Origin: a virus
Virus record (IMG/VR): IMGVR_UViG_3300036770_002847
Coordinates: 1-42,026 of that record
Length of the DNA stretch: 42,026 nucleotides
Reading direction: 5' to 3' (one strand)
The notes below the pieces were generated by a model. It searched no databases, was not told the origin of the DNA, and worked only from the letters and a program-made list of their open reading frames with translations. Made by a program: the position numbers and the translations under genes. Shown piece by piece: positions 8,509 through 24,063 of this stretch. The number at the start of each line of letters is the position of its first letter. Within the stretch, counting starts at the first letter, position 1.

Positions 8509-8509
8509 A

Positions 8510-9340
8510 ATGAATATTAGTAATGACATTAGTATTGTAACTGCTTTTTTTGATATTGGTCGTGGAAATTTGCCAGCAATGAAACACGGCAGAATACTAC
8601 CACATTATCAACATAGGTCGGTTGAAACTTATTTCGAATTCTTTAAGAATTTGGCAAAATTAGATAATGAAATGGTCGTCTATACGACCGAGGATATGGT
8701 TGAAAGAATTCATAACATAAGAAAATCTTTTGGCCATGAAAAGAAAACAAAAATTATTTCTTTGAAATCTTATTTGCCTGATGATATGCATGAACTCAAA
8801 GAACGTATTCAGAATATCATGGATTCTCCTGAGTATTATAGTAAAGTTGTAAATCCACAACTGATTGAATATTGGCACGCTGATTATGTTCTCGTTAATA
8901 TTTTTAAATCTCTTTATGTCAGTCATGCGATTCAAAGTGGATTTATCAGTAGTCCTGTAACTGCGTGGATTGATTTTGGTTACGTGAGACATGATAATTG
9001 TATACCACCATCAAATAAATGGACTTACAACTTTGACCCCGAAAAAATTCATTTCTTTAATATTAGAGATATAGAACCAGATAGAGCAATTGATGATATC
9101 ATCTATACAGGTGATGTTTATATTCAAGGTTGTCACATGGTTGCTGGTACTAAAAAATGGCAATTGATGAAGCAGTTAATTATGGGTAATTTAGAAGTGT
9201 TACTCAAACACAATTTAATTGATGATGACCAAACACTTTTACTAATGTCTTATCTCACTAAGCCAGAAGAATTTGAATTGCGTTATGTTGACCCTTCCGA
9301 TTGGTTCATCATCTTTAAGGACTATAATCTAAATGCTTAG
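8510..9340 (+). CDS. HtrL/YibB-type putative glycosyltransferase
   Basis: A 276-residue protein with the features of the HtrL_YibB family. The start reads SIVTAFFDIGRGNLP. Then come a HRSVETYFEFFKNLAKL helix, VVYTTEDM, an IRKSFGHEKKTKII segment and AWIDFGYVRH near residue 155. Members lie in LPS and capsule clusters and are thought to be GT-A glycosyltransferases; WIDFG provides the acidic site. Here it is inside a run of transferases, 2 bases after the cytidylyltransferase and overlapping the next gene by 8 bases, which fits that role. The donor and acceptor are unknown. Confidence 0.8.
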   Translation: MNISNDISIVTAFFDIGRGNLPAMKHGRILPHYQHRSVETYFEFFKNLAKLDNEMVVYTTEDMVERIHNIRKSFGHEKKTKIISLKSYLPDDMHELKERIQNIMDSPEYYSKVVNPQLIEYWHADYVLVNIFKSLYVSHAIQSGFISSPVTAWIDFGYVRHDNCIPPSNKWTYNFDPEKIHFFNIRDIEPDRAIDDIIYTGDVYIQGCHMVAGTKKWQLMKQLIMGNLEVLLKHNLIDDDQTLLLMSYLTKPEEFELRYVDPSDWFIIFKDYNLNA

Positions 9341-10067
9341 AGTAATTTCTCCAAGAATACACAATCTAGGTGACTTTGCACATTGTTTGCCGGTACTGTC
9401 TGGTTTACACAAAAGAGTCGAAGAAAAATTATCATTTGTAATATGCGACAGACTTCAGAGATTTAGAGGTCTAAAAGAATTATTATTGGCACAAGATATA
9501 TTCGAAGAAGTTTTATTTGTTAGTGAATTAAAAACAGGACCACAACAATGTATTTTACTTGATGATACTGGTACTGACGAAGGTTATGGTGATAGACCAA
9601 TTGCTGTACAAAAAACTTATACTTTTATAAGAGATACTTTTAAAATTGATTTCGAATGTGATGATGATTTCATCTTAAAATTTCCAGATGTTCTCATATA
9701 CAATCAATGGAATAAAATTATAATTGGGGATAGATGGTCACCAAAAGATGCTCCAGACGTTGATACTAGAAGATATTCGAATCTAATAGAAGCATCAGGA
9801 TGTATACCAAAAGATAAAGCACACTATCTTGACTATACAAGAGATTTGATTTATAATTTAAATCTCATTAAGTACAACTCAAAACCCTTTGTCACAACAT
9901 TTACTGGCATTGGTATACTTGCAGACTTAATGAAGAAAGATTTATTTGTATTGTGGGACGAAGATATGAGAAATTGGCAAGGTTTGCCAGTTGAACATGA
10001 TTTTGACTTACACTATTACAAAAACAGAAATGGTAAATTAAAATATATAAAAGATTTTAAACTATGA
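9333..10067 (+). CDS. GT9-like (heptosyltransferase-type) glycosyltransferase
   Basis: A 244-residue protein opening with HNLGDFAHCLPVLSGLHKR (residues 9-27). This matches the GDxxxxLPxxxxL motif at the N-terminus of GT9 heptosyltransferases and related GT-B enzymes. The usual C-terminal donor-site motif (GGD/ND-S-GxxH) is weak, and the protein is shorter than classical GT9 enzymes (about 320-350), so it may be a divergent or reduced member. It is part of the coupled cluster, overlapping genes on both sides. Low GC and many AAA/ATA codons resemble the following genes. Glycosyltransferase is the best call; activity is uncertain. Confidence 0.6.
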   Translation: MLRVISPRIHNLGDFAHCLPVLSGLHKRVEEKLSFVICDRLQRFRGLKELLLAQDIFEEVLFVSELKTGPQQCILLDDTGTDEGYGDRPIAVQKTYTFIRDTFKIDFECDDDFILKFPDVLIYNQWNKIIIGDRWSPKDAPDVDTRRYSNLIEASGCIPKDKAHYLDYTRDLIYNLNLIKYNSKPFVTTFTGIGILADLMKKDLFVLWDEDMRNWQGLPVEHDFDLHYYKNRNGKLKYIKDFKL

Positions 10068-10717
10068 AAACTGGAATTATTGTAACAACACATTGTGCTG
10101 GTGTTGGCGAGGAAATGAAAAGAAAAATGACCAAGACTATTTGTAAGACACTTAGTCAAACTGGTCATATGTTGTGTCTTGCCTCGCACAGCACCATTGA
10201 TGAAGAGACACAATCTTATTGTGATGGATTTATATACGACAAAGACAATAGTTTTCAAATTGATGGAAAACCAGAAACAAATTTAACTCATGGTATGGCA
10301 GAATTAAAATCCATACACAATGCTGTTAATTTCTTAGAAAGATTTGGTGTAACACATTTTTTAAAAATTGCTTATGATAATATACCATCTGTAGATTACA
10401 ACGATATCATACAAAAGTGTGAAGACATATGTTTTACCGGTGACAAAGAAATGGTGACTGCTTATTGGGGAAATGATTATTCATTGGGCACCCATGTATT
10501 TTATTCAAGTGTTGATTTTTTCAGAAGTTCTATACCTTTAACGACACCGGATGTTTACCAAGAACAATTGGAGCAAAAATTATTTGCAAATTTTAGAAAC
10601 AGAAGCCTTTTAAACAAGGTCTATATAATAGAGAATTATCGTAATTTTTTGGGGCATGAGTTTATACAATATTCTCATGCGGGTGGCAGTAGAGTTGATT
10701 ATTATCCTTTCGAGTAA
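10064..10717 (+). CDS. Probable glycosyltransferase-related protein, unassigned
   Basis: A 217-residue soluble protein. The first strand (MKTGIIVTTHCAGVG), a helix, and a LCLASHSTID strand resemble the start of GT-A transferases. FLKIAYDNIPSVDYND near residue 101 could supply the acidic nucleotide-sugar site. A GTHVFYSSVDFFR segment near 142 resembles acceptor-side regions of transferases that modify glycans. The match is structural by eye and no family is named. It overlaps the upstream GT9-like gene by four bases (ATGA) and precedes the next gene by 3 bases, so its role probably lies in the same glycan pathway. Confidence 0.55.
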   Translation: MKTGIIVTTHCAGVGEEMKRKMTKTICKTLSQTGHMLCLASHSTIDEETQSYCDGFIYDKDNSFQIDGKPETNLTHGMAELKSIHNAVNFLERFGVTHFLKIAYDNIPSVDYNDIIQKCEDICFTGDKEMVTAYWGNDYSLGTHVFYSSVDFFRSSIPLTTPDVYQEQLEQKLFANFRNRSLLNKVYIIENYRNFLGHEFIQYSHAGGSRVDYYPFE

Positions 10718-10720
10718 ACT

Positions 10721-11431
10721 ATGATTATTAATATTCCTTTAGGTGCTTTTGGTGGACCATTGCGTAATGGTGATATGATTGCTGTTGCAAATGTTGTACA
10801 ACATCTTAGAATAATTGAAAATAAAGAAGTAAAATTTCACCTGTTTAGAGATACAATACAAGATGTTGATTATTGTAAAAAATTCTACAATTTTCTATTA
10901 AAAAACACAGATTATTTTTCTGAAACTTTAGGTGATACCAGAATACCTTGGAAAAATATTAATCTTTGGGATTACAGAGGAATGTCTGGTGACTTAGTTC
11001 AAATTAAAAATACAAGAAATAGAGAAAGAAAAATTGTCATTTGTCCTTTGTTTAATGCAACATATAATACCTATAGAAACTGGCCAAGAGCATTGTTTGA
11101 TAGGATGATTGAGGGATTCAAAGAAAAACAATATGATAATTATGTTAAAATAATTTGCACGGAAGAAGATATTCAAATTCCTGGTTGGATAACAAGTAAA
11201 GATTTCGAAACTAACTTAGAACATATTATGAGTTGTGAAGTGTTTATTGGTGGTGACACCGGCACAAGCCATTTTGCAGGCGCTTTATTTCCCGGTCCAC
11301 CAGATTTATCATATTATTATTCTGGCCACGGACTGCTACATACAACACCATTTTATAGTACGATGGGGAAAGGTAGACTTATACAATATTGGAAAGATGT
11401 TGAAGAGGCCTCATGGGAAAAAACAAAATAA
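10721..11431 (+). CDS. GT9/GT-B-type glycosyltransferase
   Basis: A 236-residue protein with two GT9-like signatures. One is KIVICPLFNATYNTYRNWPRAL (about residues 105-126), which resembles the strand and NWP/W loop before the donor site. The other is FIGGDTGTSHFAGAL near 177, the GDTGxxHxA motif that binds the nucleotide sugar in heptosyltransferases. The N-terminal domain is reduced compared with classical members. It has no membrane segment. It overlaps the next gene by 19 bases. Together with the gene at 9333 it could represent two GT-B enzymes or a split pair, since each shows mainly one end of the GT9 pattern. Confidence 0.7.
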   Translation: MIINIPLGAFGGPLRNGDMIAVANVVQHLRIIENKEVKFHLFRDTIQDVDYCKKFYNFLLKNTDYFSETLGDTRIPWKNINLWDYRGMSGDLVQIKNTRNRERKIVICPLFNATYNTYRNWPRALFDRMIEGFKEKQYDNYVKIICTEEDIQIPGWITSKDFETNLEHIMSCEVFIGGDTGTSHFAGALFPGPPDLSYYYSGHGLLHTTPFYSTMGKGRLIQYWKDVEEASWEKTK

Positions 11432-12099
11432 GCATAACTGCAATTGATACACTACATTATACTCCTAGTGTATATGCAATCAAAAGAACACTAGAAACTC
11501 TTGGTGATAAAATTACCAGAGTTTACTGGTTTAGTGATGTGCCTTTTCCTGAAGAAATAGAAACGCCTGTTTTTTGGGTTCGCATACCGAGAATCACCGA
11601 CTACAATGACCAATATGGTTACTATACTTTAAAAGTTTGTCCTGAAGTTTGCATTGAAGATTATAATTTAATTATACACTCTGATGGTTTTGCTGTAAAT
11701 AAAGAAGCATGGACTGATGAATTTTTAGAGTATGATTATATTGGTGCAGCATGGCAAGATGGTAGAATTGGAAATGGTGGTTTCTGTTTACGTTCCAAAA
11801 AATTATATCAAGCATTGAAAAAAATGAATGTTGGTTTTTCAACAGAAGATTATAAACATATCTTAAACAATCCCGATTTTCATGTCATAACAAATGGTAG
11901 ATATTTAATACCAGAAGATAATATTATTTGCAAAATACATAGACACACACTTGAAACTGAATATGAAATTAAATTTGCACCTTTATATCTCGCAAATAGA
12001 TTTAGTGTAGAGCATTTTACAAACCACCAATGGGTCGGTAAAAGTTTAGGTTTTCATGGTAAACACGGCATTGCCGAAAAATATGGAGTTAAATTGTGA
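11413..12099 (+). CDS. DUF5672-like putative glycosyltransferase
   Basis: A 228-residue protein with the pattern I associate with DUF5672. It has NLIIHSDGFAVNKEAWTDEF (about residues 85-104), then YDYIGAAWQDGRIGNGGFCL and RSKKL. These enzymes occur in glycan gene clusters and look like GT-A transferases, in which HSDG supplies the acidic site and GNGGFxLRS the acceptor-side loop. Soluble, no anchor. Its ATG overlaps the upstream gene by 19 bases, and its stop overlaps the GTG of the next gene. Sugar specificity unknown. Confidence 0.8.
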   Translation: MGKNKISITAIDTLHYTPSVYAIKRTLETLGDKITRVYWFSDVPFPEEIETPVFWVRIPRITDYNDQYGYYTLKVCPEVCIEDYNLIIHSDGFAVNKEAWTDEFLEYDYIGAAWQDGRIGNGGFCLRSKKLYQALKKMNVGFSTEDYKHILNNPDFHVITNGRYLIPEDNIICKIHRHTLETEYEIKFAPLYLANRFSVEHFTNHQWVGKSLGFHGKHGIAEKYGVKL

Positions 12100-12809
12100 A
12101 AGATATTAGAGTATATGTACACGCAATGGATGTTCTTAAAGGTCCTGAAATCTTACAAGAACAAGTTGAATTGTTAGAAAAAACTGGTCTGCTCGATGCA
12201 GCAACCGAAATTAACATTGTTCAACAATTTAATGAAAATAGTTTTAAATGGTTAAAAGAAAGATGGAAAGATAGAAATAATATTCTTTACCATAATTATG
12301 GTGACGCATTTGTAGATTGGTATGAAGCAACAACAATGCAGACTATTCAAAATGCGGTACATGGAACAAAAGATGAATTTTATGTACTGTGTATGACAGC
12401 AAAAGGTATGTCCCACTCTGCTGAAGGCCATCATAATTGGCGTAAGTATATGCAATACTTTACTGTGGAGAAATGGAAAGAGTGTGTTGAAAAACTAGAT
12501 GAGGGTTATGAACTTGTTGGTTCACCCTGGTTAGATAATCCACCATATCCATTTATGGCAGGTACTTTCTTTTGGGCTAAGGCATCATATCTAAGAAGAT
12601 GCAAAAAACTTTTGTCTCCTGCTGAAGCAGATTTCAAACCACAATTTGAAGGACAACCACACCATCGATTCGACCTTGAGTGCTGGCCAGGTAGTGGAAA
12701 TCCAAAAGCCTACGATATGAATCCTGGAGAAGTTAATCGTTGGTATGGTCCACCTTCATCATATAGAAATGATATGAAAAACATTTTTGTTTATAACACG
12801 GCAGCTTAA
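12096..12809 (+). CDS. Putative glycosyltransferase, GTG start
   Basis: A 237-residue protein. It shows YHNWRKYMQ-type sequence (HHNWRKYMQYFTVEKW, about residues 109-124), GYELVGSPW near 138, and FMAGTFFWAKASYLRRCKK near 150. A WAxxxYLxxL acceptor-side loop is typical of small GT-A enzymes found next to polysaccharide genes. The start is a GTG at 12096 that overlaps the TGA of the previous gene; GGAG at 12085-12088 is correctly spaced, and no ATG fits. Directly followed by the 4,6-dehydratase gene. Function is inferred from motif resemblance and neighbours. Confidence 0.65.
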   Translation: MKDIRVYVHAMDVLKGPEILQEQVELLEKTGLLDAATEINIVQQFNENSFKWLKERWKDRNNILYHNYGDAFVDWYEATTMQTIQNAVHGTKDEFYVLCMTAKGMSHSAEGHHNWRKYMQYFTVEKWKECVEKLDEGYELVGSPWLDNPPYPFMAGTFFWAKASYLRRCKKLLSPAEADFKPQFEGQPHHRFDLECWPGSGNPKAYDMNPGEVNRWYGPPSSYRNDMKNIFVYNTAA

Positions 12810-12810
12810 C

Positions 12811-13755
12811 ATGATAATAGTTACTGGTGGTGCTGGATTTATTGGTGGAAACTTTTTGTGGTATCTTTATAAGAATAAGATAACTGACCGTGTTGTTTGC
12901 ATTGATAATTTGACATATGCATCCAACATCGAATACATTCAACCATTAATCGATGATGGTTTTGTTTCGTTCAAAGAAACAGATATTGTAGATAAAAAAG
13001 AAATACAAAATATTTTTAAAGGATACAATCCAACACAAATTATAAATTTTGCAGCCGAAAGTCATGTTGATAATTCAATCAATGACTGTATGCCTTTCGT
13101 AAAAACGAATATTGTTGGAACAATTAATCTTCTACAATGTTCAATTGATTGTAAGGATTTGGAGAAATTTATACACGTTTCAACTGATGAAGTTTATGGT
13201 GCATTAGATTTAGATGATGTTTTTGGTTTTACAGAAGAAACCATCTACAGACCAAACAATCCCTATTCAGCATCAAAAGCATCAAGTGACCATTTTGTAC
13301 GTGCATTTCACAAAACGTATGGTTTACCGACAGTTATTACAAACTGTTCAAACAACTATGGTCCAAATCAAAACAAAGAAAAATTTATACCAACAATTAT
13401 TACCAAAGCACTAAAGAATGAAAAGATTCCTGTTTATGGTGATGGTTTATATGTAAGGGATTGGTTGTACGTTGAGGACCATTGTTTTGGTATACACCGA
13501 GTTATGGAAGATGGCATAATTGGTGACAAGTACAATATTGGTGGTGGCACAGAGTTGCCAAACATCGAAATTGTGACTACAATATTAGAGAAATTAGAAA
13601 AACCAAAATCTCTAATTGAGTATGTGAAAGATAGACCTGGCCATGATAGACGATATTCGATTGACTGTTCTAAAATAGAAAGAGAATTGGGATACAAACC
13701 TCGTTACACGATGGAACAAGGATTAGAATTAACAATAAAGGGCTTTATAGAATGA
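12811..13755 (+). CDS. dTDP-glucose 4,6-dehydratase type enzyme (RmlB-like)
   Basis: Extended SDR that converts an NDP-hexose to the 4-keto-6-deoxy sugar. TGGAGFIGG (residues 5-13) binds NAD; FAAESHVDNSI, STDEVYG and YSASKASSDH follow; then TNCSNNYGPNQ, VYGDGLYVRDWLYVEDH and RPGHDRRY. These are the classic RmlB signatures and favour dTDP-glucose over CDP-glucose as substrate. The 314-residue length is usual. The real start is the ATG at 12811, which puts the Rossmann strand at the N-terminus; a TTG 24 bases earlier is rejected. The stop overlaps the 3-dehydrase gene, its likely next step. No RmlA-type thymidylyltransferase is in this window, so the donor probably comes from the host. Confidence 0.9.
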   Translation: MIIVTGGAGFIGGNFLWYLYKNKITDRVVCIDNLTYASNIEYIQPLIDDGFVSFKETDIVDKKEIQNIFKGYNPTQIINFAAESHVDNSINDCMPFVKTNIVGTINLLQCSIDCKDLEKFIHVSTDEVYGALDLDDVFGFTEETIYRPNNPYSASKASSDHFVRAFHKTYGLPTVITNCSNNYGPNQNKEKFIPTIITKALKNEKIPVYGDGLYVRDWLYVEDHCFGIHRVMEDGIIGDKYNIGGGTELPNIEIVTTILEKLEKPKSLIEYVKDRPGHDRRYSIDCSKIERELGYKPRYTMEQGLELTIKGFIE

Positions 13756-15038
13756 ATACACAACAGATGATTGAAAAGTTATCAAAGACAATTCAACCAA
13801 AGTATGTTAAGAATTATGATAATTACAAAGAAGGTGATTTTGTACAATATTCTGGTCAACTTTGGGACGATAAAGAATTGTACGCTGCCATGGACACATT
13901 GCTGAATGGAGCGTGGGTAGTTTCTGGTGAAAAAGTATCAGAGTTTCAAGACGAATTCAGTAAACGATTCAATGTAAAATATTCACATATGGTCAATTCC
14001 GGCAGTTCTGCTAATCTAGTATTGATTACTGCTATGAAAAAGAAATTCGATTGGCAACCAGATGATGAGGTCATTGTTTCGCCTGTTGGTTTTCCAACTA
14101 CGATTGCACCAATTATTCAAAATGGTTTGAAACCCGTTTTTGTTGACATTGAGTTGGACACATTAAATTTTGATATTGATTTAATCGTTGATAAGATTAC
14201 TCCCAAGACAAAAGCAATTTTTGTTTCACCTGTTCTTGGTAATCCTCCTGATATGGACCGATTGGTAGATATCTGTGAGAAACACAATATCTTCTTGCTT
14301 GGTGATAATTGTGATTCATTGGGCACACTATGGAATGGAAAATTAATTACTGACTTGTATTATGCTTGGTCGTGTTCATTCTATCCTGCTCACCACATTT
14401 CTACAGGTGAGGGTGGCATGGTTTCATCAAACGATGAGGACTTTATCAAAGAAGCACGTAGTATTTCTTGGTGGGGTCGTGATTGTTATTGTGTTGGTTC
14501 AAACAATTTATTGGCCTGCGGCACTTGCGGCAAACGTTTTGATACTTGGTTGCCTGGATATGATGGCATTATTGACCACAAATATCTATTTACCAATATT
14601 GGTTACAATCTCAAACCTTTAGACTTGCAAGGTGCCATTGGTATCGAACAGTTAAAGAAATTTGATATGTTGGAATCTAAACGTAGAGAATACAAAGAAA
14701 CCATTCAAAGGTTTGTAGAAGAAAATATTGACGGAGCAAGAGTCATCAATTCTCTACCAGCATCCGACCCATCTTGGTTTGGTGTTCCGATTTATTGTGA
14801 ATCACAAGGCATGAAAGAATTCTTGGTTTCACACTTCGAAACAAATAAGATTCAAACAAGGAACTACTTTAGTGGAAACATTCTGTTGCATCCTGGATAT
14901 AAACACTTGGATGACCATAAAAAGTATCCAAATTCAAACCTTGCATTGAGTAATGTATTCTTCATTGGCTGTTCACCACTATACAATGAAAAAGTTTTAA
15001 ATTATATTAAAGAGGTTTGCAGAAGTTGGAACGATTAA
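13752..15038 (+). CDS. RfbH/E1-type 3-dehydrase (3,6-dideoxyhexose synthesis)
   Basis: DegT/DnrJ/EryC1-fold PMP enzyme that removes the C3 hydroxyl of a 4-keto-6-deoxy NDP-sugar. SFYPAHHISTGEGG (about residues 209-222) has His where aminotransferases have the PLP lysine, the hallmark of E1/RfbH and ColD. Cysteines follow the E1 [2Fe-2S] spacing: the Cys of DNCDSLG, then 57 residues, then C-Y-C. The next Cys comes after 8 residues and another (ACGTCGKRF) after 11, against 7 in the reference, so a small insertion lies there. At 428 residues it matches E1 (about 437) better than the cluster-free ColD. Family members act on CDP- or TDP-sugars; the upstream RmlB-like gene hints at TDP. No E3-type reductase is seen nearby. 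Confidence 0.9.
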   Translation: MNTQQMIEKLSKTIQPKYVKNYDNYKEGDFVQYSGQLWDDKELYAAMDTLLNGAWVVSGEKVSEFQDEFSKRFNVKYSHMVNSGSSANLVLITAMKKKFDWQPDDEVIVSPVGFPTTIAPIIQNGLKPVFVDIELDTLNFDIDLIVDKITPKTKAIFVSPVLGNPPDMDRLVDICEKHNIFLLGDNCDSLGTLWNGKLITDLYYAWSCSFYPAHHISTGEGGMVSSNDEDFIKEARSISWWGRDCYCVGSNNLLACGTCGKRFDTWLPGYDGIIDHKYLFTNIGYNLKPLDLQGAIGIEQLKKFDMLESKRREYKETIQRFVEENIDGARVINSLPASDPSWFGVPIYCESQGMKEFLVSHFETNKIQTRNYFSGNILLHPGYKHLDDHKKYPNSNLALSNVFFIGCSPLYNEKVLNYIKEVCRSWND

Positions 15039-15850
15039 TTAATGTTTTTGGTGGTTCTGGATTTGTAGGTAAAAGATATTCAGAACTTACCAAAAATGTC
15101 ATTGTAAATGACCGAGATGATTACCAGGTAAAAGCTGGTGTTACGGATGTTGTCTACTTCATTTCCACAGTAGACAACTATAATGTGCATACCAATCCAT
15201 ATGTTGACATTGAGACTAATCTTACCACTTTAGTAAAGGTATTGGAATCCTGCAAAGGAAGAGACCTGGTCTTTAACTTTATCAGCTCATGGTTCGTCTA
15301 TGGTGATGTAGAACTACCTGCTAAGGAGACTTCCTATTGCAATCCTAAGGGGTTCTATTCAATCACAAAGAGAGCTGCAGAACAATTACTTATTTCATAT
15401 TGTGAAACTTTTGGTATGAAATATCGTATAATAAGACTAGCAAATGTTTTAGGAAAAGGTGACGGTAAAGTATCAAAAAAGAAAAATGCTCTACAGTATA
15501 TGATTAACGAATTGAAAGAAGGTCGTGATGTGGAAATGTATGATGGTGGTCTAGTTTATAGAGATTATATTCATGTTGATGATGTGGTTACATCGATTTC
15601 GATTTTAATTAACCACAGTAAAACAAATGATATCTACAATGTTGGCAACGGAGAAAAAATCTATATTAAGGACGCACTTGAATATGCACACTCCAAGATA
15701 TCTTCACCTGGTCAATTAAAGAGTAGAGAAACCGCAGAGTTTCACAAGGTAGTTCAAACGAAAGACATGGTACTTGACATTTCCAAAATAAAGACCTTGG
15801 GTTATGAGCCCCAATACGACATTAAAAAAATCATAGATTCTTTACTGTAA
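15026..15850 (+). CDS. NDP-sugar epimerase/reductase (SDR), TTG start
   Basis: A 275-residue extended SDR. INVFGGSGFVGKRY at the N-terminus is the NAD(P) glycine motif. ISSWFVYGD (near residue 88) and YSITKRAAEQL (near 110) give the catalytic Tyr/Lys, followed by RLANVLGKGD and YRDYIHVDDV. Coming right after an RfbH-like dehydrase it could be the terminal 4-keto reductase (paratose/abequose synthase-like), but that is inferred from position. The start is the TTG at 15026 with AGAGG at about 15011-15015; it overlaps the previous gene by 13 bases. The stop codon falls in the left arm of a large hairpin. Confidence 0.8.
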   Translation: MERLINVFGGSGFVGKRYSELTKNVIVNDRDDYQVKAGVTDVVYFISTVDNYNVHTNPYVDIETNLTTLVKVLESCKGRDLVFNFISSWFVYGDVELPAKETSYCNPKGFYSITKRAAEQLLISYCETFGMKYRIIRLANVLGKGDGKVSKKKNALQYMINELKEGRDVEMYDGGLVYRDYIHVDDVVTSISILINHSKTNDIYNVGNGEKIYIKDALEYAHSKISSPGQLKSRETAEFHKVVQTKDMVLDISKIKTLGYEPQYDIKKIIDSLL

Positions 15851-15981: not shown

Positions 15982-17157
15982 ATGCTTTCGTTTAAAACTT
16001 TCTTAAAAGAAGAAAATGAGCCTGACGGCAAACTAAAACATATTCACCACGCTGAAGACCGACCACTCCTTCACGGAAATAAAGGTTTTGAACACGCATA
16101 CGCCGCACTCAATCAAGCTCACGGACACATCAAGTCTGGTGGCAACAGTTCTTCTTTAACAATGAAATACGATGGTTCACCATCAATTGTTTTTGGTCAT
16201 CATCCAGAAACAGGTAAATTCTTTGTGGCCAGTAAGTCTGCTTTTAACGTCAATCCAAAAATAAATTATACTCACGCAGACATTTTAAAAAATCATGGCC
16301 ACGCACCGGGTCTGATGGACAAACTCCATTCAGCACTCAATCATCTTAAAAAAGTTGCACCAAAAAGTGGTGTTTATCAGGGTGATATGATGTTCTCTGA
16401 AGGAGATAAGAAAGAATCTAAAAAAGGAGTTTCTTTCACACCAAATACAATTACATACACCGCAAAAGGTGGTGAAGCTGATAAGGCTCGCCGTGCAAAG
16501 ATGGGTGTTGTAGTGCATCAACAATATCATGGTGAAAAATTATCTGATATGAAAGCAGACCCATTCCCAGATACGCATAACTTTAAACAACATCCAGATG
16601 TTTGGCATCGTTCAGCCGAACATGATACCAAACAGGTACATTACTCCGAACAACACCAACAAGATTTTATGAAACACATGAATGCTGCAAAAGAATTACA
16701 TGATAAACACAAAAATGAAATGTATGCAGCTATACAACCACATATGGGTGACGCTAACCACCTATCAACATATATCAACCAAACTGTAAGAACTGGTGAA
16801 AAACCAAATACAAAAGGTTTAATTTCTCACATACAAGACAAATACAAAAAAATGACTGCTAAGTTAAAAACTCCAGCAGCACAAGCAAAGAAAAATGCAG
16901 AGCTAAATAATCATGTGCAGTATATTACACAAAATAAACAACATTATGATAATGCATTACTGATGCATGACCATTTACAAAAAGCTAAGAATGTTCTTGT
17001 TGATACATTAAATCAACATGAAGGAGACTTAGAACATCACATAGATGGCAAAAGAACTGGTCCAGAAGGTTTCGTTATTAATCATGCAGGAGAACCAACG
17101 AAACTAGTCAATCGTGCAGAGTTTGCTAGGGCAAATTTACTTAGAGTTAGAAAATGA
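15982..17157 (+). CDS. Putative head-packaged nucleotidyltransferase (RNA/DNA-ligase-like)
   Basis: A 391-residue protein. Residues 1-10 (MLSFKTFLKE) match the T4 capsid-targeting pattern, with Leu8-x-Glu10 as a prohead-protease site. The body shows motifs of covalent nucleotidyltransferases. MKYDGSPSIVFG (61-72) is like ligase motif I (KxDG), VYQGDMMF (131-138) is in the place of motif III, and EGFVI (362-366) followed by TKLVNR resembles motifs IV and V. Motif order is right but spacing is long, with an inserted His/Lys-rich helical region (about 180-350). The call as ligase-like is mine, by eye. ATG 15982 is chosen over an upstream GTG because AGAGGAA precedes it. It overlaps the next gene by four bases. 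Confidence 0.6.
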   Translation: MLSFKTFLKEENEPDGKLKHIHHAEDRPLLHGNKGFEHAYAALNQAHGHIKSGGNSSSLTMKYDGSPSIVFGHHPETGKFFVASKSAFNVNPKINYTHADILKNHGHAPGLMDKLHSALNHLKKVAPKSGVYQGDMMFSEGDKKESKKGVSFTPNTITYTAKGGEADKARRAKMGVVVHQQYHGEKLSDMKADPFPDTHNFKQHPDVWHRSAEHDTKQVHYSEQHQQDFMKHMNAAKELHDKHKNEMYAAIQPHMGDANHLSTYINQTVRTGEKPNTKGLISHIQDKYKKMTAKLKTPAAQAKKNAELNNHVQYITQNKQHYDNALLMHDHLQKAKNVLVDTLNQHEGDLEHHIDGKRTGPEGFVINHAGEPTKLVNRAEFARANLLRVRK

Positions 17158-18962
17158 AATCATTTTTAGACATACTTAAAGAAGAACAAGAAAACGAAAA
17201 ACATCATGTGATTGCTTTTGGTCGCATGAATCCTCCTACTACCGGTCATTTGAAAATGATAGACCGAGTAAAAAGTATTGCTCAAAAAAATAATGCTTCA
17301 CATACTGTAATTGCATCACATTCACAAGATAGTAAAAAGAATCCACTTTCTGGTGAAGAAAAAATTAAGCACCTAAAACGTTTTTCACCAGGCACAAATT
17401 TTAAATTGTCCTCTAAAGAACACCCAACAATAATGCACGCTGCAGCTGAAGCTCATGCAAGAGGTGTAACACATCTTCACGTTGTTGCTGGTTCAGACCG
17501 TGTTAAAGAATATCACGATTTATTACACAAATACAATGGTAAAAAAGCAGGTCATGGTGAGTATAATTTTAAAAAGATAACTGTACATTCTGCTGGCCAT
17601 CGTGACCCTGATGCCGAAGGTGCAGAGGGAATGTCTGCAACAAAAATGCGAGAACACGCAAAGAATAAAAACTTCTCTTCTTTTAGAGAAGGTGTGCCAC
17701 ATCACGTATCAGATGAACACGCAAAAGAAATGATGCATGATGTTCGTAAGGGTATGGGATTACACGAAGAATATAATCGTGGTATGTTTAAAGCTATTTT
17801 TGTCACTGGTGGTCCAGGTTCTGGTAAAGATGTTGTTATACGTGAAGCTATTCCCGATACTAGAGCGACCGAAATTAGTTTAACACAAGCATTTGACTTT
17901 TTAACAGACAAACAAAAACTATCTGAAAAAAGTGATAACTACAAAAGAGAATCTGTTAGAAACAGAAGTCTTTTAGTTATCAACGGACCAGCAGATTCTT
18001 CAGATGAATTGTTATATGTTAAAGAAGAGTTGGAAGAACTAGGTTACGATACGATTATGGTATTTGTTGATACCACAAATGAAACTAGTCAGAAAAGAAA
18101 CACAAAGCTTTCTCGTATGATGGTCGAGTCGATTCGATACGACAAATGGACACAATCGCAGAATAACAAGAAAAAGTATTCTGATATTTTTGAAAACTTC
18201 ATATCATTCAATAACAACTCAACAATTGAATCTTTAGAAGAAGATATTACTGACACCTACAAAAAAATAAATAGATTTATAGAGAGTGATGGTTTCAATG
18301 AAACTGCACACTCATGGTTAGAAGTTAATATGGGATTAGACATAAACCAAGAGGTCAATTCATTATTTAAGGAAAACAAAAATGATAAAAGAATTTCTTC
18401 ACGTGATAACATTCGGTCTGTTCAGAGCAGGGGACAAAGCTTTAGAAGTTTTAGACAAGGTCCAGCAGCAAAAGGACCAGCAGACGTTAGTCCAGACAAT
18501 CGACCAAACGACCCCAACGCAGACAACATCAAGTGGGACGCAAACAAAAGACCTCCAGGCACCTACATCTTCCGCACCTACGAAGAAACGGACCCAATCA
18601 TCAAAGTCTACCCAGAGCCAAAAGAAAGTAACTTCAGCAAAGACAAAGAAAAAATAAAACGCAAAGGTTTGGTGGACGCCCCAACACCAAATCAAAGATT
18701 AAGAAATGTAACAGGTATAGGGCCGGAATTTGATACTCGCCAGCAGGGAACAGTATACCCTATGTCAGGATTAGGCGATGTTACTTACAGAGAACAAAAA
18801 GAATTTAAAAAGTTTAGAAAAGAAGCCATAGACCACCATACTGTGGATATGGGTGTTGCTGGTGTTATGGGTGGCGCTACAAATAAGGAACTTATGGATA
18901 CCTATTTTGACCCCACAAGAAACATTGGTACCATTTCAAAGAAAAAGAAAGATAAGAAATGA
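17154..18962 (+). CDS. Nucleotidyltransferase/P-loop kinase fusion, putative internal head protein
   Basis: A 602-residue multidomain protein. Residues 1-10 (MKSFLDILKE) match the capsid-targeting pattern. Residues 18-200 form a cytidylyl/adenylyltransferase domain: AFGRMNPPTTGHLKMI contains the TxGH signature and GMSATKMREHA the second motif. From about 214 a P-loop domain begins with VTGGPGSGKDVV, with VFVDTTNE further on, as in small-molecule or nucleic-acid kinases. After a linker, the last 150 residues (PNADNIKWDA, TYIFRTYEE, GTVYPMSGLGDVTYREQ) form a third conserved-looking segment. A transferase-kinase pair suggests metabolism of a nucleotide cofactor or RNA end. A second frame (18382-18657) is open inside the linker. 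Confidence 0.75.
   Translation: MKSFLDILKEEQENEKHHVIAFGRMNPPTTGHLKMIDRVKSIAQKNNASHTVIASHSQDSKKNPLSGEEKIKHLKRFSPGTNFKLSSKEHPTIMHAAAEAHARGVTHLHVVAGSDRVKEYHDLLHKYNGKKAGHGEYNFKKITVHSAGHRDPDAEGAEGMSATKMREHAKNKNFSSFREGVPHHVSDEHAKEMMHDVRKGMGLHEEYNRGMFKAIFVTGGPGSGKDVVIREAIPDTRATEISLTQAFDFLTDKQKLSEKSDNYKRESVRNRSLLVINGPADSSDELLYVKEELEELGYDTIMVFVDTTNETSQKRNTKLSRMMVESIRYDKWTQSQNNKKKYSDIFENFISFNNNSTIESLEEDITDTYKKINRFIESDGFNETAHSWLEVNMGLDINQEVNSLFKENKNDKRISSRDNIRSVQSRGQSFRSFRQGPAAKGPADVSPDNRPNDPNADNIKWDANKRPPGTYIFRTYEETDPIIKVYPEPKESNFSKDKEKIKRKGLVDAPTPNQRLRNVTGIGPEFDTRQQGTVYPMSGLGDVTYREQKEFKKFRKEAIDHHTVDMGVAGVMGGATNKELMDTYFDPTRNIGTISKKKKDKK
18382..18657 (+). CDS. Candidate overprinted ORF inside the fusion gene
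   Basis: A 91-codon ORF in the +1 frame of the 17154 gene. Its ATG follows TAAGGA (about 18368-18373) at good spacing. The predicted protein has a hydrophobic amphipathic start (FLHVITFGLFRAGDKALEVL) and a disordered Thr/Ser/Gln/Lys tail. In this interval the host frame has unusually many C and few T at third positions compared with its flanks, which is what selection on the second frame's Thr/Ser/Ala/Pro codons would produce. The main frame also looks conserved here, so this would be a true dual-coding region. A local compositional shift without translation remains possible. Confidence 0.4.
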   Translation: MIKEFLHVITFGLFRAGDKALEVLDKVQQQKDQQTLVQTIDQTTPTQTTSSGTQTKDLQAPTSSAPTKKRTQSSKSTQSQKKVTSAKTKKK

Positions 18963-19294
18963 TTACCTTTAAACAATTCATTAATGAAAATTATGAATCA
19001 GAAGACCAGCTAGATGAAGCTTCACCAGCTTGGCAACGCTCTGCGGGAAAAGACCCTGAGGGTGGACTGAATAGAAAGGGTATTGCTTCTTATCGCCGTG
19101 AGAATCCAGGTTCAAAACTTTCTATGGCTGTTACAACAAAGCCAAGTAAGTTAAAGAAAGGTTCTAAGGCAGCAAAACGCCGCAAATCATTCTGTGCTAG
19201 AATGGGTGGTATGAAAAAGAGATTAACCTCGGCTAAAACCGCAAATGACCCGGATAGCCGTATCAACAAAGCTTTACGCAAATGGAACTGCTAA
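18959..19294 (+). CDS. Small basic internal head protein with two protease sites
   Basis: A 111-residue, strongly basic protein. MITFKQFINE (1-10) is the capsid-targeting pattern; a second (L)DE|AS site follows at residues 18-22, so the mature part would start at ASPAWQR. The rest carries signatures of a widespread small phage family: GGLNRKGIASYRRENPG, AAKRRKSFCARMGGM and a C-terminal ALRKWNC. The two Cys and dense Arg/Lys suggest nucleic-acid contact. The ATG overlaps the stop of the fusion gene. Function of the family is not known to me; packaging inside the head is inferred from the leader. Confidence 0.75.
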   Translation: MITFKQFINENYESEDQLDEASPAWQRSAGKDPEGGLNRKGIASYRRENPGSKLSMAVTTKPSKLKKGSKAAKRRKSFCARMGGMKKRLTSAKTANDPDSRINKALRKWNC

Positions 19295-19307
19295 CAAGGA
19301 GAATAAA

Positions 19308-20408
19308 ATGTTCACAAAAGTAAATATACCTTCCTCTTTAGTTGATGCTGTAAAAAGCATTACTGAAAAGAAAGAAATGGAAAAAGAAGAGTTGAAAGGT
19401 GACCAGCATAAAATCGACATGAACAAAAATAACAAAGTCGATGCACATGATTTTGCTATTCTCCGTTCCAAAAAGAAAATGAAAGAAGAAACCGAACTCA
19501 CAGAAGACCATTTCAAAATTGGCGATAAAGTCAAGTGTAAAGAAAGTGGTATGACTGGTGAAGTTGTAAAACTCGACAAACCTTCTGGTGAAGATGATGA
19601 AGAGTATTACACAGTCAAGCGTGAAGATGGTAAAACAATGAAATATGCACCAGAGGATTTGACATTGATGAAAGAAGAAAAAGATGGCGGTGCAAGTAAG
19701 AAACAAGAAACAACATTTCACAAGAAGTTAGATACTCTTGTTCATAAAACTTTTGGCAAGAGAAAAGAAGAAATGAAAGAAGAAGCTGAACAGATTGACG
19801 AACTTTCTAAATCCACTCTTGCTTCATACGCTAAAAAAGCAACACATGACGCAAGAATGAAATTTGCAACTGGTAAAGATTTTGAGAGAGTTGGTGCAAA
19901 GACTAGAAAACCAGAATATAAAGCAGGTGCAAAAAAGTGGGAAGACAAGTATAAAAGTGATGCTCGCAGGCGTGAAGCTGGTGTTGGTAAAGCAATTGAC
20001 CGTCTTGCAAAAGAAGGGGTTGAAATTGAAGAAATTGACGAAGCATCTTACTCTGCTAAGTCTGCACGTGCAGGTAAAGATATTGGCAAACCAGGTAAAA
20101 TGTTTAGTAAGATTGCTTCTTCTGCCGCTAAACGTTATGGTTCTAAAGAGAGTGGCGAAAAAGTTGCAGGTGCCGTTCTTGCCAAGTTACGTATGAAAGA
20201 AGACGTTGATATGGATATCGATGATGCAGATGTTGAAGAAATTTTAAATATTGTCGAAAAAACACTCACAGAGCCAGAAATGAAAAAACGTGAAGATGTT
20301 GTTAAGTCAATGAAGAAGGGTTTTTCTGGTTTCAGAAAGCGTTATGGTGATAATGCAAAATCTGTAATGTATGCTACTGCTACCAAAATTGCCAAGGAAA
20401 AAGCATAA
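19308..20408 (+). CDS. Modular lysine-rich protein with EF-hand-like, KOW-like and repeated protease sites
   Basis: A 366-residue highly charged protein built of modules. Residues 37-48 (DMNKNNKVDAHD) fit a 12-residue EF-hand/dockerin calcium loop. Residues 68-120 (FKIGDKVKC, GMTGEVVKLD, YTVKREDG) look like a KOW/SH3 barrel. Sites of type Leu/Ile-x-Glu occur at 64-66, 163-165 and 243-245, the last two as EQIDE|LS and EEIDE|AS. The modules between them are small and basic: LSKSTLASYAKKA (166-178), the AGKDIGKPGKMF to VAGAVLAKLR stretch (255-295), and a C-terminal GFRKRYGDNAKSVMYATATK unit. ATG 19308 has AAGGAG upstream. It lacks the N-terminal leader of its neighbours. Cleavage into peptides is inferred. 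Confidence 0.75.
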   Translation: MFTKVNIPSSLVDAVKSITEKKEMEKEELKGDQHKIDMNKNNKVDAHDFAILRSKKKMKEETELTEDHFKIGDKVKCKESGMTGEVVKLDKPSGEDDEEYYTVKREDGKTMKYAPEDLTLMKEEKDGGASKKQETTFHKKLDTLVHKTFGKRKEEMKEEAEQIDELSKSTLASYAKKATHDARMKFATGKDFERVGAKTRKPEYKAGAKKWEDKYKSDARRREAGVGKAIDRLAKEGVEIEEIDEASYSAKSARAGKDIGKPGKMFSKIASSAAKRYGSKESGEKVAGAVLAKLRMKEDVDMDIDDADVEEILNIVEKTLTEPEMKKREDVVKSMKKGFSGFRKRYGDNAKSVMYATATKIAKEKA

Positions 20409-21298
20409 TGAAAAGATTCAAAGAAAAATTAAACGAACTATCAAACGAACTTCTTCATCGTTACAAAGAGAAGGCAGCAGATGACGCTCGTGCTGCTGAT
20501 GCAAAGGGTGATTTCAAACGTGGAGATAAAAGATTTTCTGGTGTTGTAAAAGCAACCAAGAAACAGTTTGATAATCGTAAGATACCTAAGATGAATGAAG
20601 AAGTTGAACTTGATGAAGCAATTCCAAAATCGACACATTATGCGACCGTTCATTCTTCAAGTAAAAAAATAGTTGCTAAAGGCAATAAAAAAGATATGTT
20701 GAAAAAGATGAAAGAATTGAATAAGAAAGAAACAGGAAGTCATCATTTAGGGATGACACACAGAGGTAAAGTTGGAGATACTTTTGGTGAAGAAGTTGAA
20801 CAAATTGATGAAATTTCTGCACAAACAAAATCTTCTTACATACAAAAGGCCAAAAAAGAAGTTAAAGAGTTGAAACCACACACAAAAGGTGAGTATGGGG
20901 ATATTGCAAAAAATCTCATCAAACGCCGTGAAAAAGGTATTGCAATGGCTAAAGAAGAGATTGAACAAATTGAAGAGAAAAATGCACCAACTTCACCAGA
21001 AAAGTGGGCCCATGCTAAATCAGCAGCAAAATCAAAATTTGATGTATACCCATCAGCATATGCAAATGCTTGGGCTGCTAAAAAATACAAGTCAATGGGT
21101 GGTGGTTGGAAATCTGTAAAAGAAGAAAAAGAAGATGATTTACCATTTACACCAGATAAACCAAAAAAGAACCCTGTGGCAAAAGCAGGTAAGTATGGTG
21201 TGGGTTATTCTACTGCAAAACATTTGGCAAAAATGGCCATGCAGAAAGTTAAAGAAAAAAAACTAAAAGAAACAATGATGGGTAAAATTTCAAACTAG
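20408..21298 (+). CDS. Modular lysine-rich protein with capsid-targeting leader
   Basis: A 296-residue basic protein of the same architecture as its upstream neighbour. MKRFKEKLNE (1-10) fits the leader pattern with Leu8-Asn-Glu10. Internal sites are VELDE|AI (70/71), EQIDE|IS (135/136) and EQIEE|KN (190/191). The units after the first and third sites (LSNELLHRYKEKAADDAR and ISAQTKSSYIQKAKKE) resemble each other and the LSKSTLASYAKKA module of the 19308 gene. Residues 195-235 (SPEKWAHAKSAAK, FDVYPSAYANAWAAKKYK, GGGWK) are a separate module common in phage proteins. The start overlaps the preceding stop (TAATG). Likely processed and packaged; no enzymatic motif is seen. Confidence 0.75.
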   Translation: MKRFKEKLNELSNELLHRYKEKAADDARAADAKGDFKRGDKRFSGVVKATKKQFDNRKIPKMNEEVELDEAIPKSTHYATVHSSSKKIVAKGNKKDMLKKMKELNKKETGSHHLGMTHRGKVGDTFGEEVEQIDEISAQTKSSYIQKAKKEVKELKPHTKGEYGDIAKNLIKRREKGIAMAKEEIEQIEEKNAPTSPEKWAHAKSAAKSKFDVYPSAYANAWAAKKYKSMGGGWKSVKEEKEDDLPFTPDKPKKNPVAKAGKYGVGYSTAKHLAKMAMQKVKEKKLKETMMGKISN

Positions 21299-21302
21299 AG
21301 AT

Positions 21303-22172
21303 ATGAAAATGAAGAAATTAAAAGACATTGTTGTTAACAAAGTTGGACCACCAGCAAAGTTTGGAACAAATCCAATGGAACCATGGTCAACACGAGCCAA
21401 CATTTATGAAGGTCGTGGTTGGTTAGATAGATATTTGGCTGCAAAAGGGTTAGACCCAAGATTCGTTACACCAAACCAAAAAGTTTCATATGCGAAATCG
21501 GGTGACTTTTTGAAATGGAAAAATGACCGAATTCTTCGTGGTGAGTCACTTGAAAATTTTGAAGACGATATTATTAATGAAGACTTGAGAAAATGGTTTA
21601 AACAAAAGTGGGTTCGCATGGACACCAAAGGCAATATAAAAGGTCAATGTGCAAGAGACCCAGGAGAAGGTAAACCCAAATGTCTTCCTGCTGCCAAAGC
21701 AGCTGCTTTAGGTAAAGACAAAAGAGCTGCAGCTGCCAGAAGAAAACGTAGAGAAGACCCTAATCCTGAACGCAGAGGCGCACCAATTAATGTAAGAACG
21801 GAAGATGTATTCTCTGATACATATGCCGCAACACAAACAACTCCTAATGTACAAGATGTTATCGATAATCGTAAAAAAGAAATGTCAAAATCTGCTCGTA
21901 TCATTAAATCAATATACAAGAAAAAGCAGATGAAAGAAGATATGTACGATTGGGAGAAAGAAGATAAGTCAGTAAAGACTTATGGTAAGAAACCAAAAAT
22001 GCAGTCTTTAGAATCAGAGAATGGTAGAAAACCTCCAGCAGCTGCGGTGGTTAGCGGTGGAAAAACATTAACAGGTGTGGACCGTGACGATATCCAAATC
22101 GACCCTATGTTAAAAATGAGACCACCAGGACAAACAGACTTTGATTCGCAAGTTGCGAAAAAAAAGTACTAA
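21303..22172 (+). CDS. Basic modular phage protein with KWFKxKW/PKC motif
   Basis: A 289-residue protein. After a Trp-rich N-terminal part (EPWSTRANIYEGRGWLDRYL), an INE|D site lies at 91-93. Directly after it comes the module DLRKWFKQKWVRMDTKG, CARDPGEGKPKCLPAAKAAAL and RAAAARRKRRED. That KWFKxKW...PKC...A/K-rich unit recurs in many phage proteins without known function and often follows such cleavage-like sites. The C-terminal third is polar and Pro/Lys-rich, probably disordered. It has no N-terminal leader. The ribosome site is weak (AGAG). Placed with the internal-protein block by composition and neighbours; a virion location is inferred. Confidence 0.65.
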   Translation: MKMKKLKDIVVNKVGPPAKFGTNPMEPWSTRANIYEGRGWLDRYLAAKGLDPRFVTPNQKVSYAKSGDFLKWKNDRILRGESLENFEDDIINEDLRKWFKQKWVRMDTKGNIKGQCARDPGEGKPKCLPAAKAAALGKDKRAAAARRKRREDPNPERRGAPINVRTEDVFSDTYAATQTTPNVQDVIDNRKKEMSKSARIIKSIYKKKQMKEDMYDWEKEDKSVKTYGKKPKMQSLESENGRKPPAAAVVSGGKTLTGVDRDDIQIDPMLKMRPPGQTDFDSQVAKKKY

Positions 22173-22180
22173 GATAAATA
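22173..22180 (+). promoter_or_regulatory. Late-promoter-like box GATAAATA
   Basis: GATAAATA just after the stop of the preceding gene and 31 bases before the ATG of the Ig-like virion protein. It is identical to the boxes at 4235 and 15923 and fits the T4-type late consensus with one change. Confidence 0.55.
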
Positions 22181-22210
22181 ATAAGATAACCCAGACTAAA
22201 GGAGAAAATA

Positions 22211-22822
22211 ATGTCATCTTGGGGAAATAACGATAATGCAGCCAACGCACCATATTGGGCTGTAAATTCAACAATTATGAATCAGGAGAATGTGGAATTA
22301 AATTATTCCGCACCTACAGCTGATAACGTAGCATTACTATTTGGTAATACTACAGCAAACGTTTATACACAAGACGAAACGATTGGTTTGTTTGGTGTAG
22401 ACACTACAGAAATGGTTAATCAACCAGGTGCCGCTATGGCAGGTTGGGTAATGAAAACTGAAGGTCAAGGTGGTCGTGCTGGTCGTGTTCAATATGAAAC
22501 CCTTGTTGCAATGGGTTCAATGATTGGTGACGATGAAGATGTGGTCTTCCCAGACTCAGTTATTACCATCACAACTCAACCAGAGAGCAACGCAGCCTTT
22601 ACATCTGGTGAAGACTTAACCTTGTCTGTTGTTGCAACATCTAATCCATCTGTTACACTTGGATATCAATGGTACCAAGATAATGCTACAGAACTGACTG
22701 GTAACACAGCAGCCACATTAAATGTGTTCGCTGTCTCTGCTAACGTAAGTTACTACGTTGTTGTTTCTGGAACAGGTGCTGTCTCTGTAACATCTGATGC
22801 CGCAACAATCAACGTTGTCTAA
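22211..22822 (+). CDS. Virion structural protein with C-terminal Ig-like domain
   Basis: A 203-residue protein with few charged residues. The N-terminal half (SSWGNNDNAANAPYWAVNST, later GWVMKTEGQGGRAGRVQYETLVAMG) resembles small structural proteins of T4-like cyanophages. Residues about 115-203 form an Ig-like beta-sandwich: ITTQPESNAAFTSGEDLTLSV, LGYQWYQDNATEL with the core Trp, then YYVVVSGTGAVSVTSDAATI. Ig domains on phage capsids and tails (for example T4 Hoc) decorate the particle and bind carbohydrate surfaces. GGAG before the ATG and a late-promoter-like box support strong late expression. The exact particle location is unknown. Confidence 0.75.
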   Translation: MSSWGNNDNAANAPYWAVNSTIMNQENVELNYSAPTADNVALLFGNTTANVYTQDETIGLFGVDTTEMVNQPGAAMAGWVMKTEGQGGRAGRVQYETLVAMGSMIGDDEDVVFPDSVITITTQPESNAAFTSGEDLTLSVVATSNPSVTLGYQWYQDNATELTGNTAATLNVFAVSANVSYYVVVSGTGAVSVTSDAATINVV

Positions 22823-22825
22823 TAA

Positions 22826-23302
22826 ATGTTAAAATTCAGAGAATTTATTGTTGAGAACATGGATGCCATATCGATGGCATCCATTGAAAAAGAGAAGGTT
22901 GATTTGAATAAGGAATCAACCAGAACCGAACTCAATAGAACATTACACTTACAATTAGATTCGGACCAGTTTGTTAATCCTTATAATGCTTGGATGAAAG
23001 TACAGAAAACACTTTCAATGTATGGTATAAACCTTCCAACTGTTTTCTTTGATGATGAGTTGGAAGGTGAAGAGATTATTGCTATACACCAGTTCGGTCA
23101 TAAATTTGGAGCAGAGTTGAGTGGTAGTATTACTCCTTACCAAGAAACAAGTGAACCTGAATATTTTTTATATTTTAATTTTGGCATCGGTGATTCTGGA
23201 TTTTATGAAGCATATGCGACTGTTGTTGATGAACAGGAACTAAATTCAATGCTTGACAAAGACGAAGAGAATATTGATGCTGAAGATGATGTAGAAGATT
23301 AA
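22826..23302 (+). CDS. Hypothetical protein with capsid-targeting leader
   Basis: A 158-residue acidic protein. Its N-terminus MLKFREFIVE|N fits the ten-residue leader of the internal proteins (Phe4, Ile8, Glu10). The body is alpha/beta with FVNPYNAWMKVQKTLSMYGI (about 50-70), FDDELEGEE, and a beta-rich YFLYFNFGIGDSGFYEAYATVV stretch (near 113-135), ending in an acidic tail. Unlike the other leader-bearing proteins it is not basic, so it would be an unusual head passenger or a scaffold-like component. It starts 4 bases after the Ig-like gene. I know no functional family. Confidence 0.7.
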   Translation: MLKFREFIVENMDAISMASIEKEKVDLNKESTRTELNRTLHLQLDSDQFVNPYNAWMKVQKTLSMYGINLPTVFFDDELEGEEIIAIHQFGHKFGAELSGSITPYQETSEPEYFLYFNFGIGDSGFYEAYATVVDEQELNSMLDKDEENIDAEDDVED

Positions 23303-23305
23303 TTT

Positions 23306-23692
23306 ATGTTTGAAAATTTGACTGATGATAATTTTGTGATGTTTGCAATGAAGTGTTATGTATCACCTAGTTGCCTTATGTCAGAATTTGAAGGTGATAT
23401 CAAAAGAACGAAATATCTGAAAAGGTTATTTCGTAGATATAAGATAACAAAAAATCTCAAAGAGAGATTGATACTGAATCACATAATCTTATTGAACAAT
23501 GTTTTTGGTCCAGAAGTTACTGCGAGAATATTGTTCTATAAGATAGATGAAAGAGATTATGATATATTGAAAACATTTCTAGCATATCTTAACATTATGC
23601 CAGAAATAATTTATGGAATCAGAGGTAAAAATATTTACTCGTCTGATATTCAAATAGATACAAATGTCGCAGAGATATTGGCAAAGATATGA
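23306..23692 (+). CDS. Conserved hypothetical helical protein
   Basis: A 128-residue protein, mostly helical. It has a KRTKYLKRLFRRYKITKNLKERLIL stretch in parts (residues 29-54), then NHIILLNNVFGPEVTARILFYKI. This LKERLILNHIxxLxNVFG signature is common to a short protein found in many T4-like phages of aquatic hosts, usually of unknown function. The gene overlaps the next by four bases (ATGA). No catalytic motif is visible. Confidence 0.75.
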   Translation: MFENLTDDNFVMFAMKCYVSPSCLMSEFEGDIKRTKYLKRLFRRYKITKNLKERLILNHIILLNNVFGPEVTARILFYKIDERDYDILKTFLAYLNIMPEIIYGIRGKNIYSSDIQIDTNVAEILAKI

Positions 23693-24063
23693 AAAAAACA
23701 GCAAGAGAAAAATTAATTTCAGGACTAAAACGTAGTGGTTATGACGTTGAAAAAAGGCACAAATATTGGAGTGATATGTCCAAAGAATTAGAAAAACAAA
23801 AAAAAGATTATGAGAAAAAAAATTCAGAATTAAAAGAAAGATGTTGGCCAGGACATAAAGCGGTGCCCGGTAAAAAACCATATTCACCTGGCTCTTGTGT
23901 AAAAGAAGATGGTGCGGTAGCAGCAGGTCCAACTAATTCTGTTGGTGGTGGTGCTATTGCTGGTGTTGGTGTTGGACCCCAAGGTGAACCTGGTGTCAAC
24001 ATGAAAAAAAGAAAAAAAGTTATGCCATTTAATATGTTTGTAAGAAAGAAACCTAATCAATGA
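23689..24063 (+). CDS. Small phage protein with CWPGxxxVPGKKPYxxGSC module
   Basis: A 124-residue basic protein. The N-terminal helix (KTAREKLISGLKRSGYD) and a long Lys/Glu helix precede CWPGHKAVPGKKPYSPGSC (about residues 47-65), a short module found in many phage proteins of the internal-protein type. A Gly-rich segment VGGGAIAGVGVGPQGEPGV follows (about 84-102), then a basic C-terminus. The two Cys could form a disulfide or a metal site. Overlaps neighbours by four bases on each side. Function unknown; it closes the run of small virion-like genes before the lysis cassette. Confidence 0.7.
   Translation: MKKTAREKLISGLKRSGYDVEKRHKYWSDMSKELEKQKKDYEKKNSELKERCWPGHKAVPGKKPYSPGSCVKEDGAVAAGPTNSVGGGAIAGVGVGPQGEPGVNMKKRKKVMPFNMFVRKKPNQ

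Follow-up and report, generated by a model that had tools for sequence, protein, structure and literature searches.

The internal proteins IPI, IPII and IPIII of phage T4 carry a capsid-targeting sequence (CTS; MKTYQEFIAE) ahead of unrelated bodies. In the IPIII leader residues 4 and 7 serve targeting, residues 8 and 10 serve processing, and the prohead protease gp21 cleaves after L/I-X-E; CTS-like starts are also known in close relatives of T4 (PMC9026906). In phiKZ and SPN3US a gp21-like protease acts on many head-internal proteins (inner-body or ejection proteins), whose propeptides contain redundant sites (PMC9026906). Cyanomyovirus virions are reported to contain enzymes (NMNAT-like cytidylyltransferase, SAM hydrolase, APH-like kinase), and no targeting signal is offered for them in the available parts of that work. 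The window studied here is the entire 42,026-base virus record IMGVR_UViG_3300036770_002847, probably a fragment. The window comes from a T4-like freshwater phage, and five proteins of a gene cluster in it open with a leader of the T4 type. Very probably this leader is a T4-type capsid-targeting sequence, removed by a gp21-type protease so that the bodies are left in the head; the modular neighbours of the tagged proteins probably give rise to several internal peptides by cleavage.

The leaders are MLSFKTFLKE (15982..16011), MKSFLDILKE (17154..17183), MITFKQFINE (18959..18988), MKRFKEKLNE (20408..20437) and MLKFREFIVE (22826..22855), all on the + strand, as are the other proteins and predicted cut sites of the cluster described below. 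The first-pass annotation had quoted these five N-termini as sharing F4, L/I8 and E10, and all five are read in the window sequence with these residues. Position 7 is F, I, F, K and F, respectively, i.e., F or I in four of the five and K in the protein at 20408. As in T4, the leaders agree in length, register and residues 4, 7, 8 and 10, and the bodies behind them are unrelated. Unlike the T4 sequence, they have Phe instead of Tyr at position 4, stand on enzymes and modular proteins, occur on many families at once, are clustered after uvsX and gp41, and are accompanied by internal sites ahead of small domains.

The bodies belong to distinct families or to none in the Pfam search, as had been claimed: a DUF6267 protein (15982..17157; predicted cut after E10), a cytidylyltransferase/NMNAT-like domain followed by a P-loop domain (17154..18962; predicted cut after E10), a basic DUF6321 protein (18959..19294), a modular basic protein (20408..21298) and an acidic protein of unassigned function (22826..23302, pI 4.1); for the last two no Pfam family passed the cut-off. 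Two of the starts carry minor caveats. The codon at 15982 is an internal ATG within a longer GTG frame and is preceded by AAGAGGAAAT; homologues align from 15982. No clear Shine-Dalgarno sequence precedes the start at 22826, and the gene caller missed it in favour of 22874. It is retained as given in the first-pass annotation; six clustered proteins of the same kind show the leader again.

Chance origin of the leaders is excluded. From residue frequencies 0.14 such starts are expected per 58 genes and five are observed (P(≥5) = 3e-7); when N-terminal residues were shuffled, none of 20,000 shuffles yielded five leaders. Among the 1,807 genes called in the window, eight relatives and T4 (ten genomes or records), 23 open with the strict pattern M..[FY]...[LI].E. 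Of roughly 7,700 internal Met positions 3 match it, and none does once a hydrophobic residue is also required at position 7. In T4 the pattern recovers the known tagged proteins IPII and IPIII, which served as positive controls, and gp61.1. At about 170 loci the leader pattern gives 198 matches; in the same DNA seven control patterns, made by permuting or altering it, give between 0 and 19. The carriers are neighbouring genes, and duplication of a 5' end is conceivable; a duplication relic, or a translation-level signal with no role in targeting, is nevertheless extremely improbable, as four side chains are fixed and five of the ten residues are free, leaders sit on many unrelated bodies in distant phages, and the packaged proteins of T4 itself bear one. 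An origin by duplication or at the RNA level is therefore rejected.

In 38 aligned DUF6267 homologues, read from viral contigs, F4, F/Y7, L/I8 and E10 are each kept in 38/38, and residues 2, 3, 5, 6 and 9 vary. The four fixed positions are exactly those mapped in the T4 IPIII leader. A variable linker separates leader and body, and the body is near-constant from residue 17. In the AlphaFold model the leader is of low confidence, the body is not, and a short low-confidence helix is placed at residues 4-8. The leader also appears amphipathic, and it might serve as a helix docking to something else, such as membrane, portal or tail, on proteins that are virion-borne for other reasons. This is most unlikely, because the invariance of the protease-recognition positions 8 and 10 would then lack a reason. 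With a leader of the capsid-targeting kind, residues 4 and 7 would dock the protein into the scaffold core, the prohead would assemble around the core holding the tagged proteins, and the gp21-type protease would cut after Glu10 of L/I-x-E. The register claimed in the first-pass annotation, that of the T4 sequence with a gp21 cut after L/I-x-E, agrees with the published genetics of IPIII (PMC9026906).

Of 14 records searched, relatives or controls, 11 contain a gp21-type protease (PF03420); the 11 include T4, as control, and 5 of the 7 window-related viral contigs. The search for it had been proposed in the first-pass annotation and gave none in the 42-kb fragment. The protease of the relatives keeps the GELxHP and GVSxRG motifs. 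Their major capsid protein gp23 (eight relatives) has an L-x-E aligned with the LTE65 site of T4, just ahead of the conserved shell fold. In these relatives both the S77 protease and the gp23 site are as in the T4 system, and therefore the cutting specificity that the leader needs exists in the group. In most relatives (G001, G002 and others) gp21 itself begins MKLIxE or MRLIxE; judged from these letters, the I-x-E near residue 6 fits autoprocessing at its own N-terminus.

Leader-bearing proteins of relatives are present in virions. Sullivan et al. reported the cytidylyltransferase T4-GC190 from S-SM1 virions (PMC3037559). This protein, SSM1_190, starts MKKFSAFLNE and is the only strict-leader gene of S-SM1 (virion-borne, 1/1). 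The S-CREM2 virion list comprises 52 proteins (PMC10665884). Three of the 207 called S-CREM2 genes have the strict leader, which was defined before the comparison with the list: a SAM hydrolase (MKDFDSFLEE), an APH-like kinase (MKRFDAFLTE) and a cytidylyltransferase homologous to that of the window (MKNFSSFLTE). All three are listed, as against 52/207 genes overall (Fisher P = 0.015). Near-matches gp136 (MQTFSMFFSE) and gp13 (MKDLHSFLTE) are likewise in the list. In S-SZBM1 a cytidylyltransferase with a nine-residue form of the leader (MRFRQFIIE) was detected in virions. The DUF6267 proteins of S-CREM2 and S-SZBM1 are leaderless and are in neither virion list. Because tagged enzymes are detected and leaderless DUF6267 proteins are not, virion detection tracks the leader more than the body, in small numbers. 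The S-CREM2 authors allow for contamination from the lysate and offer high expression as an alternative (PMC10665884), and contamination is not excluded for these enzymes in general. As the whole cause of the detections it is very improbable: exactly the strict-leader enzymes were detected, and core replication enzymes (polymerase, helicase) are not in the available S-CREM2 list. A Cas9-like nuclease of the S-CREM2 virion (OR473000 7704-10313) has a leader-like stretch, LRFASFMAE/AA (a slash marks a predicted or aligned junction), at residues 17-25 and not at its annotated start; the stretch begins with a CTG codon, and whether the start is mis-set is uncertain.

The sorting-tag claim of the first-pass annotation is hence supported from three sides, namely conservation, protease in relatives and virion presence of leader-bearing homologues. 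Packing of at least two enzymes had also been proposed, and this holds in part. The cytidylyltransferase is clear; it is described as NMNAT-like in the available parts of cyanophage papers, its homologues are detected in cyanophage virions, and no solved structure was matched by its sequence. The DUF6267 protein is at best ligase-like. Its ligase-type motifs KYDGS, EGFV and KLV are reminiscent of those of covalent nucleotidyltransferases. Top Foldseek matches are ATP-dependent ligases with E of 0.1 or worse, none significant, and an established ligase is on this ground not accepted. The further proposal, that several basic proteins are among the tagged ones, stands for the DUF6321 protein at 18959 and the protein at 20408 and fails for the acidic protein at 22826.

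Five proteins, at 18959, 19308, 20408, 21303 and 23689, consist of short domains which other phages have in different combinations. In front of a domain there is often an acidic stretch with [LI]-x-E at its end, e.g. EEVEQIDE. Domain and leader, or domain and linker, join at the same residue. The AEYQG domain follows a leader in MLTFTQFIAE/AEYQG and a linker in PLDE/AEYQG, ELTE/AEYQG and PLEE/AEFQG. The RCWPG module stands directly behind a leader in relatives (MKSFKNFIAE/RCWPG) and behind the linker SELKE/RCWPG in the window, in the basic modular protein at 23689..24063 (predicted cut at 23836-23838). The LS-type module is found as MKRFKEKLNE/LSNELL versus SLDE/LSPATH; in the protein at 20408 the leader is immediately ahead of this LSxELL..YKEKA module, and internal linkers follow at 20615 (EVELDE/), 20810 (EVEQIDE/) and 20975 (EIEQIEE/). 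The DUF6321 protein has a predicted second cut, QLDE/ASPAWQ (19016..19018), directly before the DUF6321 domain. Two modular basic proteins lack the leader. One (19308..20408) has internal linkers at 19503 (ELTE/), 19800 (EQIDE/) and 20040 (EEIDE/); its long frame, opening at 19245, runs 50 bases into the preceding gene, and the true start is probably the ATG at 19308 (MFTKVNIPSS). The other (21303..22172) has a predicted cut IINE/DLRKWF at 21579-21581, and a relative of its LRKWF module is present in the S-CREM2 virion protein gp160. That protein contains three of the window's domain types, each preceded by LSE, LEE or ISE, and a similar domain fusion occurs in an S-P4 protein annotated as structural.

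Among 234 distinct contexts from 14 domain families, homologues of shared ancestry included, 129 have [LI]xE where the domain starts; the frequency at other positions in these proteins would give 15. The offset scan gives a sharp peak at -1/-2 before the domain. Inside domains the motif is rare (6 versus 12.5 in shuffles; 9 of 300 shuffles are as low), and DUF6267 bodies are also poor in it (0.76 versus 2.45). DUF6321 offers a natural control, since T7-like and other small phages have it as well. T7-like cyanophages encode it near the major capsid gene, and in P-SCSP1c it adjoins that gene. In these small phages it starts bare, e.g. MAKTPAWQRKEGK or MANVSLKIGKHK, with neither leader nor [LI]xE site. 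In the five contigs of the DUF6321 scan that have both the S77 protease and gp23 it is preceded by a leader or by [LI]xE. For the podophage comparison one DUF6321 probe was a handwritten consensus; it served solely to locate records, and the sequences examined were those of the records themselves.

The placement of the same domains behind leader or linker suggests head-internal polyproteins that would be cut by the same protease. The chance is somewhat better than even that such polyproteins are general among marine and freshwater T4-like phages. Small domains, most of them basic, would be strung together by acidic linkers ending in the prohead protease site and would be shuffled freely between phages behind leader or linker; one protease would both mature the capsid and free, within it, many exchangeable peptides and enzymes to be delivered into the host. 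A possible, though considerably less likely, alternative is that the leader is a real capsid-targeting tag and the internal acidic [LI]xE linkers are flexible spacers whose terminal hydrophobic-x-Glu is accidental and which stay uncut. The linkers are Glu-rich, so x-Glu is frequent in them. Against uncut spacers stand the excess of sites at domain starts, their scarcity within modules, and the joining of one module to a leader in one phage and to a linker in another at the same residue.

Several observations count against capsid targeting with processing, or against cutting of the linkers, and are given together. No head genes from gp20 to gp23, gp21, gp22 and gp23 among them, were found in the 42,026-base fragment. 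The folded cytidylyltransferase body holds six more [LI]xE, so that the motif by itself does not decide cutting, and enrichment is weak or absent in four module families (MYATAT, RKWFKQ, GAIAG, DNDGD); both points also favour uncut spacers. Seed domains were cut by eye after [LI]xE sites, so that independence is confined to the remaining contexts. In most cytidylyltransferase homologues position 8 is V, I or another residue and the site is L7-x-E9, one residue earlier. The available parts of the cited virion papers mention no peptides beginning at residue 11. The small strict-leader protein gp191 of S-SZBM1 (MKSFKSFLSE; OL473597 122311-122628) is absent from the 30 detected proteins, which makes it either a counterexample or a case of shallow mass spectrometry. 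Even so, targeting by the leader and its removal by a gp21-type protease are strongly favoured. The same protease would cut at least some linkers, so that the modular proteins would yield several internal peptides; the bodies (the cytidylyltransferase-like enzyme, DUF6267, DUF6321 and others) would stay in the head with the DNA and would be delivered into the host.

The tag itself is already known from T4. New are its presence on enzymes across aquatic T4-like phages and the site shared between domains; neither was found in the literature searched, where prohead protease, internal proteins and polyprotein are not treated jointly and a single paper mentions capsid targeting together with cyanophages. 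The same leader type on all three S-CREM2 enzymes links the system to the cyanomyovirus virion enzymes. NMNAT-like proteins, SAM hydrolase and kinases have repeatedly been found in cyanophage virions with no explanation of their entry. A ten-residue tag readable from sequence predicts which proteins are packaged, gives a handle on families of unknown function (DUF6267, DUF6321, small modules) in very common aquatic phages, and suggests a natural cargo-loading system beyond T4. The proteins of phiKZ and SPN3US resemble the proposed system in being numerous, head-internal and processed. Their propeptides are longer, have another short motif before Glu and contain no ten-residue leader.

T4 gp61.1 (NC_000866 18966-19130) lies between gp41 and gp61, a genome neighbourhood similar to that of the window, and has the strict leader MKTFKEFIKE. 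It is an uncharacterised protein of 54 residues, and no record of it in virions was found in the literature searched. At one further viral locus (L185) the leader MKSFKDYLIE stands on a protein with a HAD-phosphatase-like start, VFDVDDTLF.

The gene content of the window is that of a T4-like phage near Kyanoviridae (uvsX, gp41 helicase, spanins, endolysin, primase, ribonucleotide reductase, large peptidase). Methylophilales phage Melnitz and Pelagibacter phage HTVC008M have the gene order of the window: uvsX and gp41 come first, a cluster of unknown proteins follows, and primase and ribonucleotide reductase come after the cluster. In annotated phages no near-identity DNA match to the window and no tblastn match to the protein at 20408 were found, and viral-contig scans with the proteins at 19245, 20408, 22826 and 17154 returned few loci. 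Contig IMGVR_UViG_3300035670_006473 (38,367 bases) has 100% identity to four proteins of the cluster. Positions 5684-15850 of the window are occupied by a run of sugar-nucleotide genes (glycosyltransferase, epimerases, GDP-mannose dehydratase type, DegT aminotransferase, HtrL/YibB).

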